Positions 2 to 10,773 of a stretch of 37,324 nucleotides of DNA are shown here, piece after piece. Where the stretch lies: contig QCRX01000006.1 of the NCBI GenBank assembly GCA_003209275.1, positions 1-37,324 of the forward strand, given 5' to 3'. This DNA comes from Prochlorococcus sp. AG-463-P14. Lineage in GTDB: Bacteria; Cyanobacteriota; Cyanobacteriia; PCC-6307; Cyanobiaceae. The notes under the pieces are model-generated. The model saw only the letters and a list, made by a program, of their open reading frames with translations. It searched no databases and was not told where the DNA came from. Every line of letters starts with the position of its first letter. The first letter of the stretch is position 1. Position numbers and translations under genes: made by a program.

Positions 2-589
2 CCTGAAGAGATACTTAGTCATTGTGACTATCAATCAATAATAGGAATTTGGATGTCTGTATTTAATAGAAATCAAATTTCCATAAGTCTTTTTCAGAAA
101 ACTTATTTTCTCAATCAAGACCTAATTAGAGATTTTTGTAAAGTATCAAACATTATTTTTACGGATCAACTAATACAACCTTCTCGTGAGAACAAGTCCC
201 TCAGTTATCAAGCAATTAAATTGTTGTCTCGGATAAATCGTGAGGTCCCAAGATATATAGGGCAAGATATAAATCCTATTCGAGCTGATATGGCACAGTA
301 TTTTCATGATAACTTTTTACATTTTCCGGTGTACCAGGCATCGAAGTTTGAATTCGATAGATTTGAAAACTACTATCACCGTTCCGATGAATGGATAAGA
401 AAAGAGTTTTTCCCAGAAAAAGAAATGCTTTGGGATAAAAGTAAGGACACTTATAGAGAATCTGAGGATGAAAGATTCAGTAATATACTTACTGAACTTG
501 AAGAAGAGATGGTCAAGATATTTGCACAAGTATGGGTGAATAAAGTTTCACAAATTAATCAGCTCAAAAAAACCTCACTTCCTCAATGA
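2..589 (+). CDS. Sulfotransferase-like protein, C-terminal part (cut by window edge)
   Basis: The reading frame is open back to the first complete codon of the window, so the first ATG (position 53) is probably internal and the gene begins outside. The 17 residues before that ATG read on smoothly into it (Y..IIGIW followed by MSVFNR). The W...F..(N)Q(I).(I).LF pattern, then a helical stretch, an N.SLS..A..LL...NR segment and a C-terminal EWI...FFPE segment resemble the second half of sulfotransferase-family proteins common in marine cyanobacterial surface-glycan clusters. The PAPS-binding loop would lie upstream, so this is inferred from general pattern only. The stop codon overlaps the ATG of the next small ORF (TGATG). 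A plain hypothetical is the alternative. Confidence 0.5.
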   Translation, partial: PEEILSHCDYQSIIGIWMSVFNRNQISISLFQKTYFLNQDLIRDFCKVSNIIFTDQLIQPSRENKSLSYQAIKLLSRINREVPRYIGQDINPIRADMAQYFHDNFLHFPVYQASKFEFDRFENYYHRSDEWIRKEFFPEKEMLWDKSKDTYRESEDERFSNILTELEEEMVKIFAQVWVNKVSQINQLKKTSLPQ

Positions 590-681
590 TGCGCTGGCTT
601 TTAAGAAATCAAGCGGTGATTTGGAACGTTGGAATAGGTTTATGTATTGCGCTTGGCTTGGCTCGCTATTTGATGAATTAG
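589..681 (+). CDS. 30-residue membrane microprotein, copy A
   Basis: This small ORF encodes a 30-residue peptide with a basic, Trp-containing start (MRWLLR), a hydrophobic core (about residues 9-24, IWNVGIGLCIALGLA) and an ARYLM end, so a single membrane span is likely. It overlaps the previous stop codon by one base. A second copy lies at 2235-2330. Between the copies six codons differ silently and three change the residue (N/H, V/L, N/S), a pattern that suggests selection on the protein. The end differs: MN-stop here, MSY-stop in copy B. I do not recognise a family; it is not one of the small photosystem or b6f subunits I know. No clear ribosome-binding site is visible; the overlap suggests coupling to the upstream gene. 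Confidence 0.5.
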   Translation: MRWLLRNQAVIWNVGIGLCIALGLARYLMN

Positions 682-2445: not shown

Positions 2446-3054
2446 TTACACCTTACGTGAGTAGTACTCGACAACTAGTAGTTCGTTTATTTCTAGAGCG
2501 ACCCATTCGCGCTCACACTTTCCTGTCACTTTGGCTGTCATCTTGGATTTATCTAGTTCTAGGTGAGTAGGTACATTCGCAAGACCTGGAAATTCGAGAT
2601 TGCCTTCAGCAAGTTTTTTGCTGGCTTTCCTCTCTCGAATCGCGATCGTATCGCCTACTTTGCATTGATAACTTGCTATGTCAAGAACACGACCATTGAC
2701 GGTTACGTGTCCATGATTTACAAGTTGCCTCGCTCCTGGGACAGTGGGGCCATATCCAATGCGAAAGCAGACATTATCTAGTCTGTTCTCTAAAAGTTTG
2801 AGAAGGTTTGTTCCTGTAGACCCTTCTTGGGCTCTTGCCTTCTTTACGTAGCGAATAAGCTGTCGTTCCGAAATGCCGTAATTGAATCGTAGCTTTTGCT
2901 TCTCTTCTAGGCGAATTGCATATTCAGAGCGCTTGCGACGGGCTTGGCCGTGCTGACCTGGCGGATGTGACCGCTTTGCGGCCTTCCGGGTGAGACCTGG
3001 TAGGTCTCCCAAGCGCCGCGTAATCCTCAGGCGAGGTCCGCGGTATCGAGACAT
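2446..3054 (-). CDS. rpsD: 30S ribosomal protein S4
   Basis: The 202-residue protein has the typical start ([21 protein letters not shown]), a basic loop ([20 protein letters not shown]) and the S4 RNA-binding domain at about residues 90-155 ([25 protein letters not shown]). It nucleates assembly of the small ribosomal subunit on 16S rRNA. Length and start fit cyanobacterial S4 proteins, which lack the N-terminal zinc cysteines of some bacteria. It is transcribed away from yidD (75-base gap) and ends at the terminator at 2347-2376. Its last codons are duplicated as a fragment at 800-826. Confidence 0.97.
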
Positions 3055-5281: not shown

Positions 5282-6475
5282 TCAATTGTTCGTAAGTTTT
5301 GCAATCGCCTCACTAAGTTGTTCTACCTCTTTGTGTTCGGTTGTTATGTGCAAACAAGCACGAAGGCATAAGGGCTCTTCGAGGTCTCTTATCCATAGGT
5401 TCTCTTTCCCTAGTAGGTTGACTACCTCTGCAGGACTCCTATCTCCATGCATGAAAAAGCTAACTAGTCCTGCTGGAGGAGGCCCTTCTAGCAGTAGCTC
5501 TATGCCATCCATTGCGTTTAGTTCCCTCCAGAGCTCATGACTGTATTTTTGAATATTTTTATGGCGTTCTTCTGCAGCTCCTTCTTGCTCAAGTAGCTGG
5601 AGAGAACACCGAAGACCTGCCAAAAGAGGTATGCATGACGTAGCAATTTCAAAACGCCTGCTGTCTTTATGGAACATTTCTGCATGCGGTGTATTTGTAG
5701 TGTTCTCCTGTTTCAGGCTTCGCCAGCCAATCAAGGTGGGATTGGCCTGATTGAGGACGCGATCAGATATGGCTACTCCACCTAGTCCTTCAGGACCGCA
5801 TGCCCATTTATGACCAGTAAAGGCAAAAATGTCAGATGAGGCTGCAACACTCTCTACTGGGATTTGCCCAAAGCTTTGAGCTGCATCAACAAGCAAAAAA
5901 GGTTGTCTGGGATGATTTTTTAAAAGTTCTGCAATTAGTGATATGGGCATCAGTTGTCCTGTGTTCCACAATAAATGTGAAAGTACTACCAGACGTGTAT
6001 TAGCAGTTAGTGATTTTGATATGAGGCTAAGTACACTTCGATCGGTATCTCTTTGCTGATTGACTCCTTTCCTGAGCTGTTGTACTGGCAGCACGTCTAT
6101 TTCAAGATTGTTACGCCGAGATAATTCTTTGCATGCTGCTACTACTCCAGGATGTTCACAGTCGCCTATAAGCAATCTATCCCCTTTGCTAAAAGGGAGT
6201 CCCAAAAGAGGCAACACGCATCCGCTGGTGACATTTTCCGTTAACGCCAGCCTGTGACTAGGTACACCGCATAATTTAGCGAGTTGTTTTCTTGTATTAA
6301 CGATTTCACTTGATACATATGGCCATACGGAGTTTGAGAAAGGCCCTAGGGCTTGAATTTTTTGCCAGCTTTCTGTGATTGCTTCTAGAGACTGTCGCGG
6401 GAGAGGTCCTTGCCCTCCATAGTTGAAGTAAGCCTTGTTGGACAGTGCGGGCATGGAATCCCTTAGGAAACTCAT
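5282..6475 (-). CDS. Class V aminotransferase (cysteine desulfurase / selenocysteine lyase-like)
   Basis: This 397-residue fold-type I PLP enzyme has the PLP aspartate in LLVDAAQSFGQ (D197) and the Schiff-base lysine in FTGHKWACGPEG (K223). The start FNYGGQGPLP and the EHPG motif fit the class V family that includes SufS/IscS-type desulfurases and isopenicillin-N-epimerase-like proteins. I see no clear SufS-type mobile cysteine loop, so the substrate is uncertain; cysteine desulfuration is one possibility. It is convergent with murE, only 11 bases apart. Confidence 0.85.
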   Translation of the reverse strand: MSFLRDSMPALSNKAYFNYGGQGPLPRQSLEAITESWQKIQALGPFSNSVWPYVSSEIVNTRKQLAKLCGVPSHRLALTENVTSGCVLPLLGLPFSKGDRLLIGDCEHPGVVAACKELSRRNNLEIDVLPVQQLRKGVNQQRDTDRSVLSLISKSLTANTRLVVLSHLLWNTGQLMPISLIAELLKNHPRQPFLLVDAAQSFGQIPVESVAASSDIFAFTGHKWACGPEGLGGVAISDRVLNQANPTLIGWRSLKQENTTNTPHAEMFHKDSRRFEIATSCIPLLAGLRCSLQLLEQEGAAEERHKNIQKYSHELWRELNAMDGIELLLEGPPPAGLVSFFMHGDRSPAEVVNLLGKENLWIRDLEEPLCLRACLHITTEHKEVEQLSEAIAKLTNN

Positions 6476-6603
6476 CTTAGAGGCTTTTAATTGCGTTTAT
6501 TTTGAAAATCATTGATAGAGGTATTGAAACTACTAATAATTCTGGAGGCCTTTCCTTCGACGTGCTTTTATATGTAGCGTCTTATTAGCCTCTTTACGAA
6601 ATC

Positions 6604-6876
6604 TTGGAAGGCCTCGATTCTCAGATCAAAGGGTTCCTCTTCTTTACGGGGAACTTATTTCGCTGGCCAGCGCAAAAACCGCAGGAATTTTTGTTTTTTC
6701 ACTTATATATCTTGTTGATTTATTTCTTTTACTCAGTAAGTGGACTGGGCCTGGTCTTAGTTGCTGGAGCTCTGGCACCATTGTGCTTGGCTATTTTTCG
6801 TGGACTTCCAATTGACTGTCTTGATTACAATGCTGCCAAAATAAGGGAATTTGAACCAGATTCGTTGGATAAGTAA
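6604..6876 (+). CDS. Small membrane protein, unknown function
   Basis: The 90-residue frame begins at TTG 6604; an in-frame stop lies at 6586-6588 and no ATG occurs in the frame. Residues about 30-66 are strongly hydrophobic (FLFFHLYILLIYFFY, then LGLVLVAGALAPLCLAIF), giving one or two membrane spans, followed by a hydrophilic charged tail. The WPAQKPQEF segment before the span and FRGLP after it look like conserved-protein sequence rather than chance. It stands alone between two minus-strand genes. Function unknown. Confidence 0.6.
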   Translation: MEGLDSQIKGFLFFTGNLFRWPAQKPQEFLFFHLYILLIYFFYSVSGLGLVLVAGALAPLCLAIFRGLPIDCLDYNAAKIREFEPDSLDK

Positions 6877-7062
6877 TTAGAAAATTTTCATAAAAGCCAC
6901 ATAAATGCATAGTTTCTCTAAAAGAATAAATGGCTATATTAGGCTTTCCCTTGAAAATTTTAGAGTAGTAAATTTCTGAAAGGCCTTGAGATACTATGTT
7001 TCTCGGCCATTTGTTAATCCATTCTACTGGTTAATTAGGGATCTTTCTCTCCATTGAGTCTG

Positions 7063-7308
7063 TCAAAGGACTTGAATTACTTCGCTTACCTCTGGAATCA
7101 TCTCACGTAGTTTTCGTTCGATGCCCATTTTCAGCGTCATTGTGCTGCTTGGGCATGTACCACAAGCGCCTTGGAGTCTGACTTTCACTACAGGACCTTC
7201 TATCTCAACTATTTCGACATTTCCACCATCGGCCATTAAGAAGGGCCTTAGTTCATCAAGGACTGTTTCGACATTCTCTTGAGTGAGTGCCATTCCTGTG
7301 CTGCTCAT
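7063..7308 (-). CDS. NifU-like iron-sulfur scaffold domain protein
   Basis: The 81-residue protein consists only of a NifU C-terminal domain: [20 protein letters not shown], then [18 protein letters not shown] with the CxxC pair that carries a labile Fe-S cluster, and an amphipathic end. Such short Nfu proteins are the main Fe-S carriers of cyanobacteria and serve, among others, photosystem I. It starts at ATG 7308 and is divergent from mqo with a 69-base gap that must hold both promoters. Confidence 0.93.
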
Positions 7309-7377
7309 TGACTTTATTCAGACTTGGTTATGTTCAGCCTAGTGACTTAGCTCATAATCTGATCATTAGGTTCTCTT

Positions 7378-8874
7378 TTGATTGTGTACTTTTCTGGCAC
7401 TGTCGGATCAGAAAGTCGATATGACGCGGTTTTGATAGGTGCTGGAATTATGAGTGCAACCTTAGCGGTTTTACTTCATGAGTTAGATCCCACCTTGCGT
7501 CTTTTGATTGTTGAGAGATTGGATTCACCTGGTCTTGAAAGCAGCTCACCCCTTAATAACGCAGGCACAGGTCATGCTGCTAATTGCGAACTCAATTACA
7601 CACCTGTTCAAGTTGATGGCAGCATTAATCCCACTAAAGCCTTGTCAATAAATGCGGCTTTTGAGCAAAGTCTTGAATTTTGGGCTTCATTAACTGAGCT
7701 TGGCAAGTTTTCTTCTGAACAGTTCCTTCGCGTTTTGCCGCACATAAGTTTTGTCTCAGGTGATTGTGATGTTGCTTTTTTACGGAAACGTTTTGACCTG
7801 CTAAGTACATTTGAGGCGTTCTCTGCAATGGAATGGAGCGAGAATTTTGAGGAACTGAAAGAGTGGATTCCGTTAATAATGGAAGGTCGACCTCTTGATC
7901 AGAAGTTGGCAGCTACTCGGATTAATAGAGGGACAGATATTGATTTTGGAGCATTGACAGTTGCGTATCTTCAGCATCTTCAGGGAAGTGGAGTCCTAGA
8001 ACTGAAATTCAATACAGAAGTAATTGGTTTAGGAAGAAATCTTGAGAATGATTGGTATTTGGAATTACAGGGAAAGGACGTTCATAACGAAGTGCAAGCA
8101 CCTTTTGTTTTTGTTGGTGCTGGAGGTGGTGCACTAACTCTTTTGCAGAAATCAGGAATCCCAGAGGGAAGAGAGTATGGGGGCTTCCCAGTAAGCGGTC
8201 AATGGCTGGTTTGTTCTGATAGTCGATTAGCAGAAAAGCATCATTCGAAAGTTTATGGAAAGGCCAGGGTTGGAGCTCCTCCAATGTCGGTACCTCATCT
8301 AGATACACGTTGGATTTCCGGAGGACGATCGCTCCTTTTTGGACCTTTCGCGGGATTTAGTAGTAAGTTTCTCAAACAAGGTTCTTATTTGGATCTTTTC
8401 CGTTCAGTGAATAGGAAAAATTTTGGGCCAATGGTTCAAGTAGGGATCAATAACTTTGATCTAGTGAAATATCTAATACAGCAAGTGCGCCTTAGTCAGC
8501 AGGATCGAGTTGATTCTCTGCAGTGCTTTTTCCCAATGGCAAATCCAAATAGCTGGAACACATCTATTGCTGGCCAGCGAGTTCAGATTATTAAAAGGAC
8601 AAAAGCTGGTGGCATTCTGAAAATGGGAACGGAGGTGGTTTCGTCTTCAGATGGTTCTTTGGCGGCTTTATTAGGGGCTTCACCTGGAGCAAGTACCGCA
8701 GTAACGATCATGCTGGAAGTCTTGCAGCGATGCTGGGGAGATCGAATGGAGAGTGAGGCTTGGCAAAAACGAATTAAAGAACTACTTCCTAGTTTTGGTA
8801 AAGACCCAAATCAAGATCATGATTTGCTGTTGAGGATGCGACAGCGAAGCGACTATATTTTGGACTTGATCTGA
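7378..8874 (+). CDS. mqo: Malate:quinone oxidoreductase
   Basis: This 498-residue FAD-dependent, membrane-peripheral enzyme oxidises malate to oxaloacetate and passes electrons to quinone. It has the N-terminal dinucleotide fold ([19 protein letters not shown]), the family motif [17 protein letters not shown], a central PVSGQWLV and KVYGKA segment, and a C-terminal [12 protein letters not shown]. No ATG lies in the first 20 codons; TTG 7378 or GTG 7384 are possible starts and leave a short extension before the fold. Length is normal for the family. Confidence 0.95.
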
Positions 8875-8964
8875 GGTCTTAATTATTTTTTTGTTGATTC
8901 TTCAGATGACTTCTGAATACCCAAGTAATGATCATTGCCCACTGAGAAGGGAATCTGCAATCGG

Positions 8965-10773
8965 ATGACTAATGTTCCCGTTTCTCACTTGAGGAATTTC
9001 TGCATTATTGCCCACATCGATCACGGCAAGTCGACGTTGGCAGACAGGCTCTTGCAGGACACTGGCACAGTTGCAAGCAGAGATATGCAAGAACAGTTTT
9101 TAGACAATATGGATTTAGAGAGAGAGAGAGGAATAACTATTAAGCTTCAGGCCGCTCGGATGAATTACCAAGGCTCTGATGGAGAAACTTATGTGCTTAA
9201 CCTTATAGATACTCCTGGACATGTCGATTTCTCATATGAGGTAAGTCGTTCCTTGCAAGCTTGTGAGGGAGCGCTTTTGGTTGTTGATGCAAGTCAGGGA
9301 GTAGAGGCTCAAACTCTGGCAAATGTATATCTCGCTCTTGAGAATGATCTTGAAATAATCCCAGTACTTAACAAAATTGATCTTCCAGGGTCTGACCCTG
9401 ATCGAATAAAAGAAGAAATAGAGTCAATAATTGGCTTGGACACCTCAAAAGCTATTTCATGTTCTGCTAAAACAGGATTAGGTATTCCTAATATTCTTGA
9501 AGCAGTTGTTGATAGGATTCCACCGCCTAAAGATAAACTAGAACAACCAACTAAAGCATTAATTTTTGACTCTTATTATGATTCCTATCGAGGGGTTATT
9601 GTTTATTTTCGTGTAATTTCTGGTCGGATAAGTATTAAAGATAAAGTCTTATTGATGGCCAGTGGAAAAAGTTATGAACTTGATGAAATCGGTATTATGG
9701 CTCCTAATGAGTGCAAGGTTGACTCTCTTCATTCTGGTGAAGTTGGGTATTTGGCGGCATCAATTAAAGCAGTTGCAGATGCAAGGGTTGGCGATACTAT
9801 TACGCTTTTAAATTCACCAGCTGATGAGCCACTCCCTGGATACAATGAAGCAAAACCAATGGTGTTTTGTGGTTTGTTTCCTACTGATGCAGATCAATAT
9901 CCAGATTTAAGAGAAGCTCTTGATAAATTACAACTTTCAGATGCTGCTTTGAAGTATGAGCCTGAAACAAGTAGTGCCATGGGATTTGGTTTTCGATGCG
10001 GATTTTTAGGCCTGCTTCATATGGAGATTGTGCAAGAACGATTGGAAAGGGAATATGATCTTGACCTTATAGTTACCGCTCCTTCTGTTATATATAAGGT
10101 GAATATGATTGATAATGAAATATTGATGATAGATAATCCTGCTACATTGCCAGACCCTCAAAAACGTGAATCTATAGAGGAGCCATACGTAAGAATGGAG
10201 ATATATGCACCTAATGAATATAATGGAACCTTGATGGGCCTTTGTCAGGAAAGACGTGGTGATTTCATAGACATGAAATACATTACAACAAATAGAGTAA
10301 CTCTTATATATGAGTTACCTCTTGCAGAAGTTGTCACAGATTTTTTTGATCAGATGAAAAGTAGAACCAAGGGATACGCATCAATGGAATATCATTTAAT
10401 TGGTTATAGGCGTAATGACTTGGTCAGGTTAGATGTACTCATTAATTCAGAAAAAGCCGATCCACTGACTACAATAGTTCATCGTGAAAAATCTTATAGT
10501 GTTGGCAAAGGATTAGTTGAGAAATTGAAAGAACTTATTCCTAGACAACAATTCAAGATACCATTACAGGCATCAATTGGAAGTAGAATTATTGCAAGTG
10601 AAAGTATAAGTGCAATGCGTAAAGATGTATTGGCAAAATGTTATGGTGGTGATATTTCGCGAAAGAAGAAGTTGCTTAAGAAACAGGCTAAAGGCAAAAA
10701 AAGAATGAAGGCAATGGGTAAAGTTGATGTGCCTCAGGAGGCATTTATGGCAGTATTGAAGTTAAATCAATAA
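8965..10773 (+). CDS. lepA: Elongation factor 4 (LepA), ribosomal back-translocase GTPase
   Basis: From ATG 8965 the protein has 602 residues, the usual LepA length; the frame extends ten codons upstream to a TTG, which I disregard. GTPase motifs are complete: [28 protein letters not shown] and SAKTG. The EF-G-like domains follow, and the LepA-specific C-terminal domain carries [36 protein letters not shown] and a basic tail. It acts on ribosomes in elongation and biogenesis. Confidence 0.97.

Follow-up and report, generated by a model that had tools for sequence, protein, structure and literature searches.

Prochlorococcus genomes are streamlined, yet their gene content varies widely between cells. 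The 37,324-nucleotide stretch of Prochlorococcus sp. AG-463-P14 analyzed here (contig QCRX01000006.1, hereafter the window) contains, near its start, two copies of an open reading frame (ORF) of 30 to 31 codons, and this raises the question of whether so short a frame is a gene and, if it is, what it is doing beside rpsD. When the two copies are considered together with their relatives in other genomes, the best explanation overall, to which we assign a probability of about 0.7, is that they encode a real single-span membrane microprotein, the terminal gene of small integrative units at rpsD.

Two copies of a short ORF within a direct repeat

The first copy (589–681, + strand) encodes MRWLLRNQAVIWNVGIGLCIALGLARYLMN, 30 aa, and the second (2235–2330, + strand) encodes MRWLLRHQALIWNVGIGLCIALGLARYLMSY, 31 aa, and is convergent with rpsD, the gene for 30S ribosomal protein S4 (2446–3054, − strand; TIGR01017, E = 3e-75); both were taken from the ORF list and from the constraint described below. 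An in-frame ATG at 586 would give the first copy 31 aa, and its start overlaps the stop codon (587–589) of the ORF upstream. Both ORFs lie inside D1, a 249-bp direct repeat on the + strand whose copies are 80% identical over the 249 bp; the distal copy (578–826) comprises the microprotein ORF, a left arm and an rpsD-tail core, and the last 27 bp of the rpsD-proximal copy (2224–2472) are the 3′ end of rpsD itself.

The first-pass annotation of this DNA had proposed that the same frame is open in both copies and that six silent against three replaced codons are fewer replacements than neutral duplicates should show. Both ORFs are present, and codon-by-codon comparison returns the same counts, with silent differences at codons 5, 9, 18, 21, 23 and 28 and the replacements H7N, L10V and S30N, plus Tyr/stop at codon 31. 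Nei-Gojobori counting gives seven synonymous and four nonsynonymous changes, and so few of the latter would arise under neutrality with P ~0.008, assuming a neutral nonsynonymous fraction of ~0.75. Read from its sequence, the pair by itself is modest evidence of constraint. The peptide has one hydrophobic span in its 30–31 residues, as had been stated, and its reported lack of likeness to known small photosynthetic subunits agrees with searches of Pfam and NCBIfam, in which neither copy had a match at E ≤ 1. No RNA family was found in the window by Rfam at gathering thresholds. The description as a gene in two copies needs enlarging: there are two in the window, but they belong to a multi-copy family that lies at the edge of tandem cassettes.

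Coding constraint on the microprotein

We aligned 57 copies of the microprotein and sorted them by context. For the 12 intact copies from related genomes that are linked to rpsD or to an array core, dN/dS, which the earlier annotation had suggested as a check, is 0.11 (95% CI 0.05–0.19, bootstrap over codons), and the other five frames of these copies give values of 0.41–5.0. Pairwise differences in the same set amount to 0.11/0.03/0.23 at the three codon positions; the set was picked for absence of stops and is slightly biased in that respect, but the codon-position pattern is independent of that choice. The eight copies linked to p44, an ORF introduced below, have a dN/dS of 0.28. Taking the 24 array or rpsD copies together, intact and broken alike, gives 0.15 over codons 12–30, and the C-terminal part of the broken copies has 0.20. 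Several copies carry a Shine-Dalgarno-like A(A/C)GGA 5–9 nt before the ATG. The coding reading of the ORFs is well supported by these comparisons, and there is good evidence that the frame is a gene translated now or until very recently, translation itself being what we infer from the pattern of substitutions. The product would be inserted in the membrane, and its role is presumably cellular rather than element-serving.

Could the ORF instead be untranslated, the repeat being a DNA or RNA element in which an open frame is incidental? The flanking arm is structured and covarying, and many copies are without an intact frame, as might be expected of such an element. The constraint, however, is frame-specific and third-position-biased, and at the protein level the ORF resembles a family of longer ORFs in Synechococcus/Cyanobium-type genomes; we regard an untranslated element as extremely improbable.

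A longer relative and the p44 neighborhood

The microprotein's counterpart in larger Cyanobiaceae genomes is an unnamed protein of ~64 aa with two hydrophobic spans, to whose C-terminal half it corresponds and with which it shares its end point. HHalign aligns the microprotein with this family at 98.2% (E = 4e-14, 29 columns), and because the profile matches the C-terminal half, the microprotein is the equivalent of the second span in a membrane protein restricted to the Cyanobiaceae. A class-wide search found the ~64-aa family in Cyanobiaceae genomes, with marginal matches only elsewhere (E = 0.003–0.01). The likeness to the ~64-aa protein (L027–L032, L047, L048 and L161) resides in 29 shared residues, W(I)WN-G-GL...L..R.L; the two differ in that the microprotein has one hydrophobic span rather than two, the first helix being absent, and occurs in multiple copies that are mobile, whereas the ~64-aa gene is found in single or double copy in fixed neighborhoods. 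The microprotein may therefore be described, at the level of sequence, as a putative shortened relative of the two-span Cyanobiaceae protein, the longer of the two being testable in culturable Synechococcus.

At loci L043–L046, L049, L065 and L066 the microprotein is directly behind a conserved 44-codon ORF, p44 (MSLKKLTPTKPDKDQPWKVWAF...), which has a single span of its own and no Pfam match. The p44-linked position is probably the ancestral place of the microprotein. The native p44-linked copies have decayed in four genomes (G040, G042, G043 and G108).

Distribution, copy number and loss

Close sequence relatives in the named collection occur only in Prochlorococcus records, almost all of them single-cell genomes of the AG-363, AG-404 and AG-409 series. 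Relatives at E ≤ 1 were returned from 120 of 300 family genomes, the weak ones including chance matches; close matches (roughly E < 1e-9) are confined to small genomes, and none was found in genomes taken as high-light type in the family and class-wide searches. A single genome can have as many as seven matches, and these often form clusters at intervals of 1.5–3 kb; stops occur in some copies. Most of the compared genomes are partial single-cell assemblies in which contig ends may cut array edges; the AG-463-P14 assembly is 1.14 Mb in 73 contigs and 64% complete. This genome has a third, decayed copy on another contig (L003/L068, contig C64, about 1540–2920), adjoining a desaturase gene and a relative of the gene at 1183–2163 of the window.

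At the orthologous position next to rpsD, where frameshifts or stops had been named as evidence that would count against a gene, the outcome is divided: four of nine copies are intact, and five are broken, either by stops or by exchange of the N-terminus for other sequence. A tally of whether every array genome holds an intact microprotein gave a count not clearly above chance. These breaks, together with the decayed p44-linked copies, suggest that the microprotein is selected as a family and can be lost at any single place. Judging from the copies compared, the coding claim holds, yet the microprotein is dispensable at any one position.

The same losses bear on whether the microprotein is a passenger or relic that the array amplifies, with selection acting on other copies and gene conversion mimicking constraint within the array. 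That about half of the rpsD-adjacent copies are broken would suit a passenger, as would the dN/dS of the broken copies' C-terminal part, which is what would be expected if constraint had been inherited or spread by conversion. Intact array copies across genomes nevertheless hold a dN/dS of ~0.1 over a synonymous divergence of ~0.37, and G042 and G043, in which the p44-linked copies have decayed, have intact copies elsewhere, which suggests replacement and not mere hitch-hiking. We therefore consider a passenger unlikely.

Anatomy of the rpsD array

The unit adjoining rpsD in the window is bounded by two stretches recognized from the repeat and their match to rpsD: the core at the 3′ end of rpsD (2446–2472), which is the presumed target site, and an att-like core at the unit's far end (800–826), in which the rpsD 3′ end is duplicated. 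Within a unit the order is rpsD-tail core, right arm of ~300 bp, usually one cargo gene, microprotein and left arm, so that the microprotein is the part of the shared repeat nearest the cargo. Here the right arm (827–1130, end approximate) is non-coding and conserved between units and genomes; the cargo gene of the unit (1183–2163, − strand) encodes a secreted-type protein of 326 aa with a weak FG-GAP match; and the cargo ORF of the next unit (53–589, + strand, 178 aa) has no family match and a frame that is open to the window edge. The array is flanked in this genome by rpsD-yidD-murE.

The left arm consists of the rpsD terminator and a covarying hairpin. Both terminator stems are on the − strand with a T-run on that strand, and both the first (706–730) and the second (2352–2376), which is the rpsD terminator, were recognized from sequence, alignment and pair counts. 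The hairpin motif follows at 737–767 and 2383–2413 and is built on a 7-bp sequence that occurs twice as a direct repeat and once inverted: GTTAGAC at 737–743 and 748–754 with inverted GTCTAAC at 761–767, and GTTTGTC at 2383–2389 and GTTTGTA at 2394–2400 with inverted TACAAAC at 2407–2413. The three elements change together between units (GTTAGAC, GTTTGTA, GTTTGAC, GTTTGAA and others), as in the pairs GTTAGAC/GTCTAAC and GTTTGTA/TACAAAC; 97.5% of cells are paired, and the covariation score is greater than in all shuffles and slides.

A short hydrophobic peptide beside such a structure invites comparison with type I toxins, in which case the microprotein would be an addiction peptide of the Fst/TisB kind that stabilizes the array, opposed by an antisense RNA from the convergent rpsD side. 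The peptide is indeed short, cationic, hydrophobic and single-span, transcription is convergent, direct repeats and the covarying hairpin adjoin it, and a similar idea has been proposed for the Prochlorococcus RNA pairs Yfr6/Yfr14 and Yfr8/Yfr9 (PMC2518516). The adjoining terminator, however, is that of rpsD, with its T-run on the minus strand only; an antisense promoter or RNA is hypothetical; and the longer two-span relative occurs in genomes free of the array. A toxin that stabilizes the array is very improbable, the likeness to type I toxin–antitoxin systems being one of sequence resemblance.

Among the 41 loci searched, rpsD tails in many relatives are arranged in tandem and in one orientation, spaced 0.66–3.4 kb apart and running away from rpsD, with five tails in each of the arrays L033 and L039 and three in each of L035, L041 and L054. 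Array L039 and some others are on contigs where rpsD was unseen. The array at locus L034 (G053 contig C3, 18.9–24.3 kb) shares these cores and microproteins, but the 20 kb of sequence read there contains no rpsD; it may be a second array site or the product of a broken assembly. All internal rpsD tails run into the shared right arm and not into rpsD, and in all units of many genomes identity to rpsD stops at a fixed point (~26 bp), where the right arm begins. Of 400 family genomes, 10 have the right arm, and these represent 10 genera; it was not found in any of five p44-type genomes. Array-free relatives have other DNA after rpsD, commonly a terminator with a left-arm-like flank, and because of this resemblance the left arm is probably the native 3′ flank of rpsD.

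Several hairpin-like segments occur in the right arm (827–1130), and their sequence varies between units. The motif TTGGTATGACT(A/G)GG is found at 770–797, 828–855 and 2416–2443, in the same orientation on either side of the rpsD-tail core, and is a possible candidate for a recombinase-binding pair.

Cargo is exchanged between the same arms. It includes type IV pilin-like proteins, a fatty acid desaturase, GTP cyclohydrolase I, methyltransferases and TPR proteins, as well as a radical SAM protein and RTX or metalloprotease-like proteins; relatives of the 326-aa cargo protein in other units have RTX repeats or a metalloprotease-like part. The families of 29 examined cargo ORFs include no integrase and no relaxase. 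Often the microprotein directly follows cargo that is encoded on its own strand; other units have divergent cargo.

How units may enter and exchange cargo

Integrative elements at gene 3′ ends restore the gene end. We propose that in part of Prochlorococcus the microprotein became the terminal gene of small tandem integrative units at the 3′ end of rpsD, where the adjoining unit would give rpsD back its last codons, its stop and its terminator. As the part of the shared repeat nearest the cargo, the microprotein is copied with each unit; it would be expressed together with the cargo where it is downstream of it, and a swap of cargo by recombination inside the microprotein would leave a truncated copy. 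Identity to rpsD that stops at a fixed point, units that all face one way, and conserved arms around varied cargo are consistent with site-specific integration at the 3′ end of a gene. We suppose this integration to be performed in trans by an enzyme of the tyrosine-recombinase type, with homologous recombination inside the repeat probably contributing. What tells against a purely site-specific model is that the breakpoints are not constant on the microprotein side, a pattern better matched by homologous recombination than by a precise site.

The arrays might instead have been built by RecA-type recombination and tandem duplication alone, without a site-specific recombinase and with the 250-bp repeat as the homology used. 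The variable breakpoints inside the microprotein are what this would produce, no integrase is linked to the core, and in L033 adjoining units are near-duplicates with identical cores and arms. It accounts less well for the rpsD share, which ends at the fixed ~26 bp and is followed by a conserved right arm not found in array-free relatives, or for unrelated cargo in constant orientation, as in fixed-site integration, and we regard it as somewhat unlikely. The two near-duplicate units of L033 lie at 5385–9225, and the identity of their cores and right arms suggests a recent tandem duplication.

For the site-specific integration that we favor, a recombinase was sought directly. There was no match to Phage_integrase in the AG-463-P14 genome at its 64% completeness, and no rpsD core was found within about 1.5 kb of the integrases of ten related genomes, several of them incomplete. 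At locus L116 (G057 contig C1, 756.8 kb) a strong tyrosine recombinase is beside tRNA-Tyr and tRNA-Thr; the rpsD array is about 30 kb away, and no rpsD core lies close to the recombinase. The candidate tyrosine recombinases are a conserved one of ~390 aa and one of ~327 aa in G057. A more elaborate version of the model, which we hold to be doubtful, would make the array an integron-like capture platform that units of one or a few genes enter and leave through a site-specific reaction in trans, the arm microprotein having a separate function, such as one in the membrane or in maintaining the array.

Comparison with known systems

We found no description of rpsD islands or Prochlorococcus cassettes in the open-licence literature. 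A comparable case in these cyanobacteria is the 33-aa ORF of Yfr6, a short conserved Prochlorococcus peptide missed by gene callers and reported from high-light and low-light strains (PMC1242208, PMC2518516). The microprotein is like it in being short, conserved in Prochlorococcus and overlooked by gene callers, but its close matches were not found in any genome taken as high-light, and from the distribution in the literature identity with Yfr6 is judged unlikely. The microprotein thus adds to the small membrane proteins that gene callers miss a family with a clear signal of selection. A viral origin was also considered: patterns for the microprotein, the left arm with core and the right arm had no match in IMG/VR, which is weak evidence since the patterns were exact-match.

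Variable cargo at the end of a conserved Prochlorococcus gene recalls the tycheposons, summarized in PMC10872708 as 4–200 kb elements at tRNA genes with a tyrosine recombinase. By that description the units here differ in being 0.7–3.4 kb, in having rpsD as their target and in that no linked recombinase was found, and we do not file the array with the tycheposons because these are larger, tRNA-linked and recombinase-carrying. There is no tRNA in the window or in six array loci, and a tRNA-targeted island was ruled out on that ground. Small swappable cassettes arrayed in tandem at a single fixed site would give Prochlorococcus a way of varying its gene content that is distinct from tRNA-targeted islands, and since the arrays lie in single-cell genomes they are open to bulk comparison.

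Two further systems are comparable. Integron cassette arrays likewise have mostly single-gene units, a conserved structured spacer and one orientation; here, in contrast, a spacer of ~570 bp takes its core from the end of a host gene and is not an attC hairpin, the array is anchored at rpsD, and no intI was found in the AG-463-P14 genome. In Streptococcus salivarius, ICEs, IMEs and CIMEs are stacked in tandem at the 3′ ends of rpmG, rpsI and rplL, where tandem CIMEs measure 1.2–13 kb and microCIMEs 130–220 bp (PMC7563491). CIMEs differ from the present units in that here the gene is rpsD in a cyanobacterium, the units are mostly single-gene, a microprotein gene lies in the arm, and a parent ICE or IME with the same core was not found in the 11 genomes searched for an integrase, several of them incomplete. 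Both are small, carry cargo and have no genes for recombination or transfer; both stand in tandem where a ribosomal-protein gene ends; and both are flanked by repeats of that gene end, which here are rpsD-tail cores numbering up to five per array. By analogy, the rpsD array resembles a tandem accretion of CIME type, or a cassette array that has no integrase.
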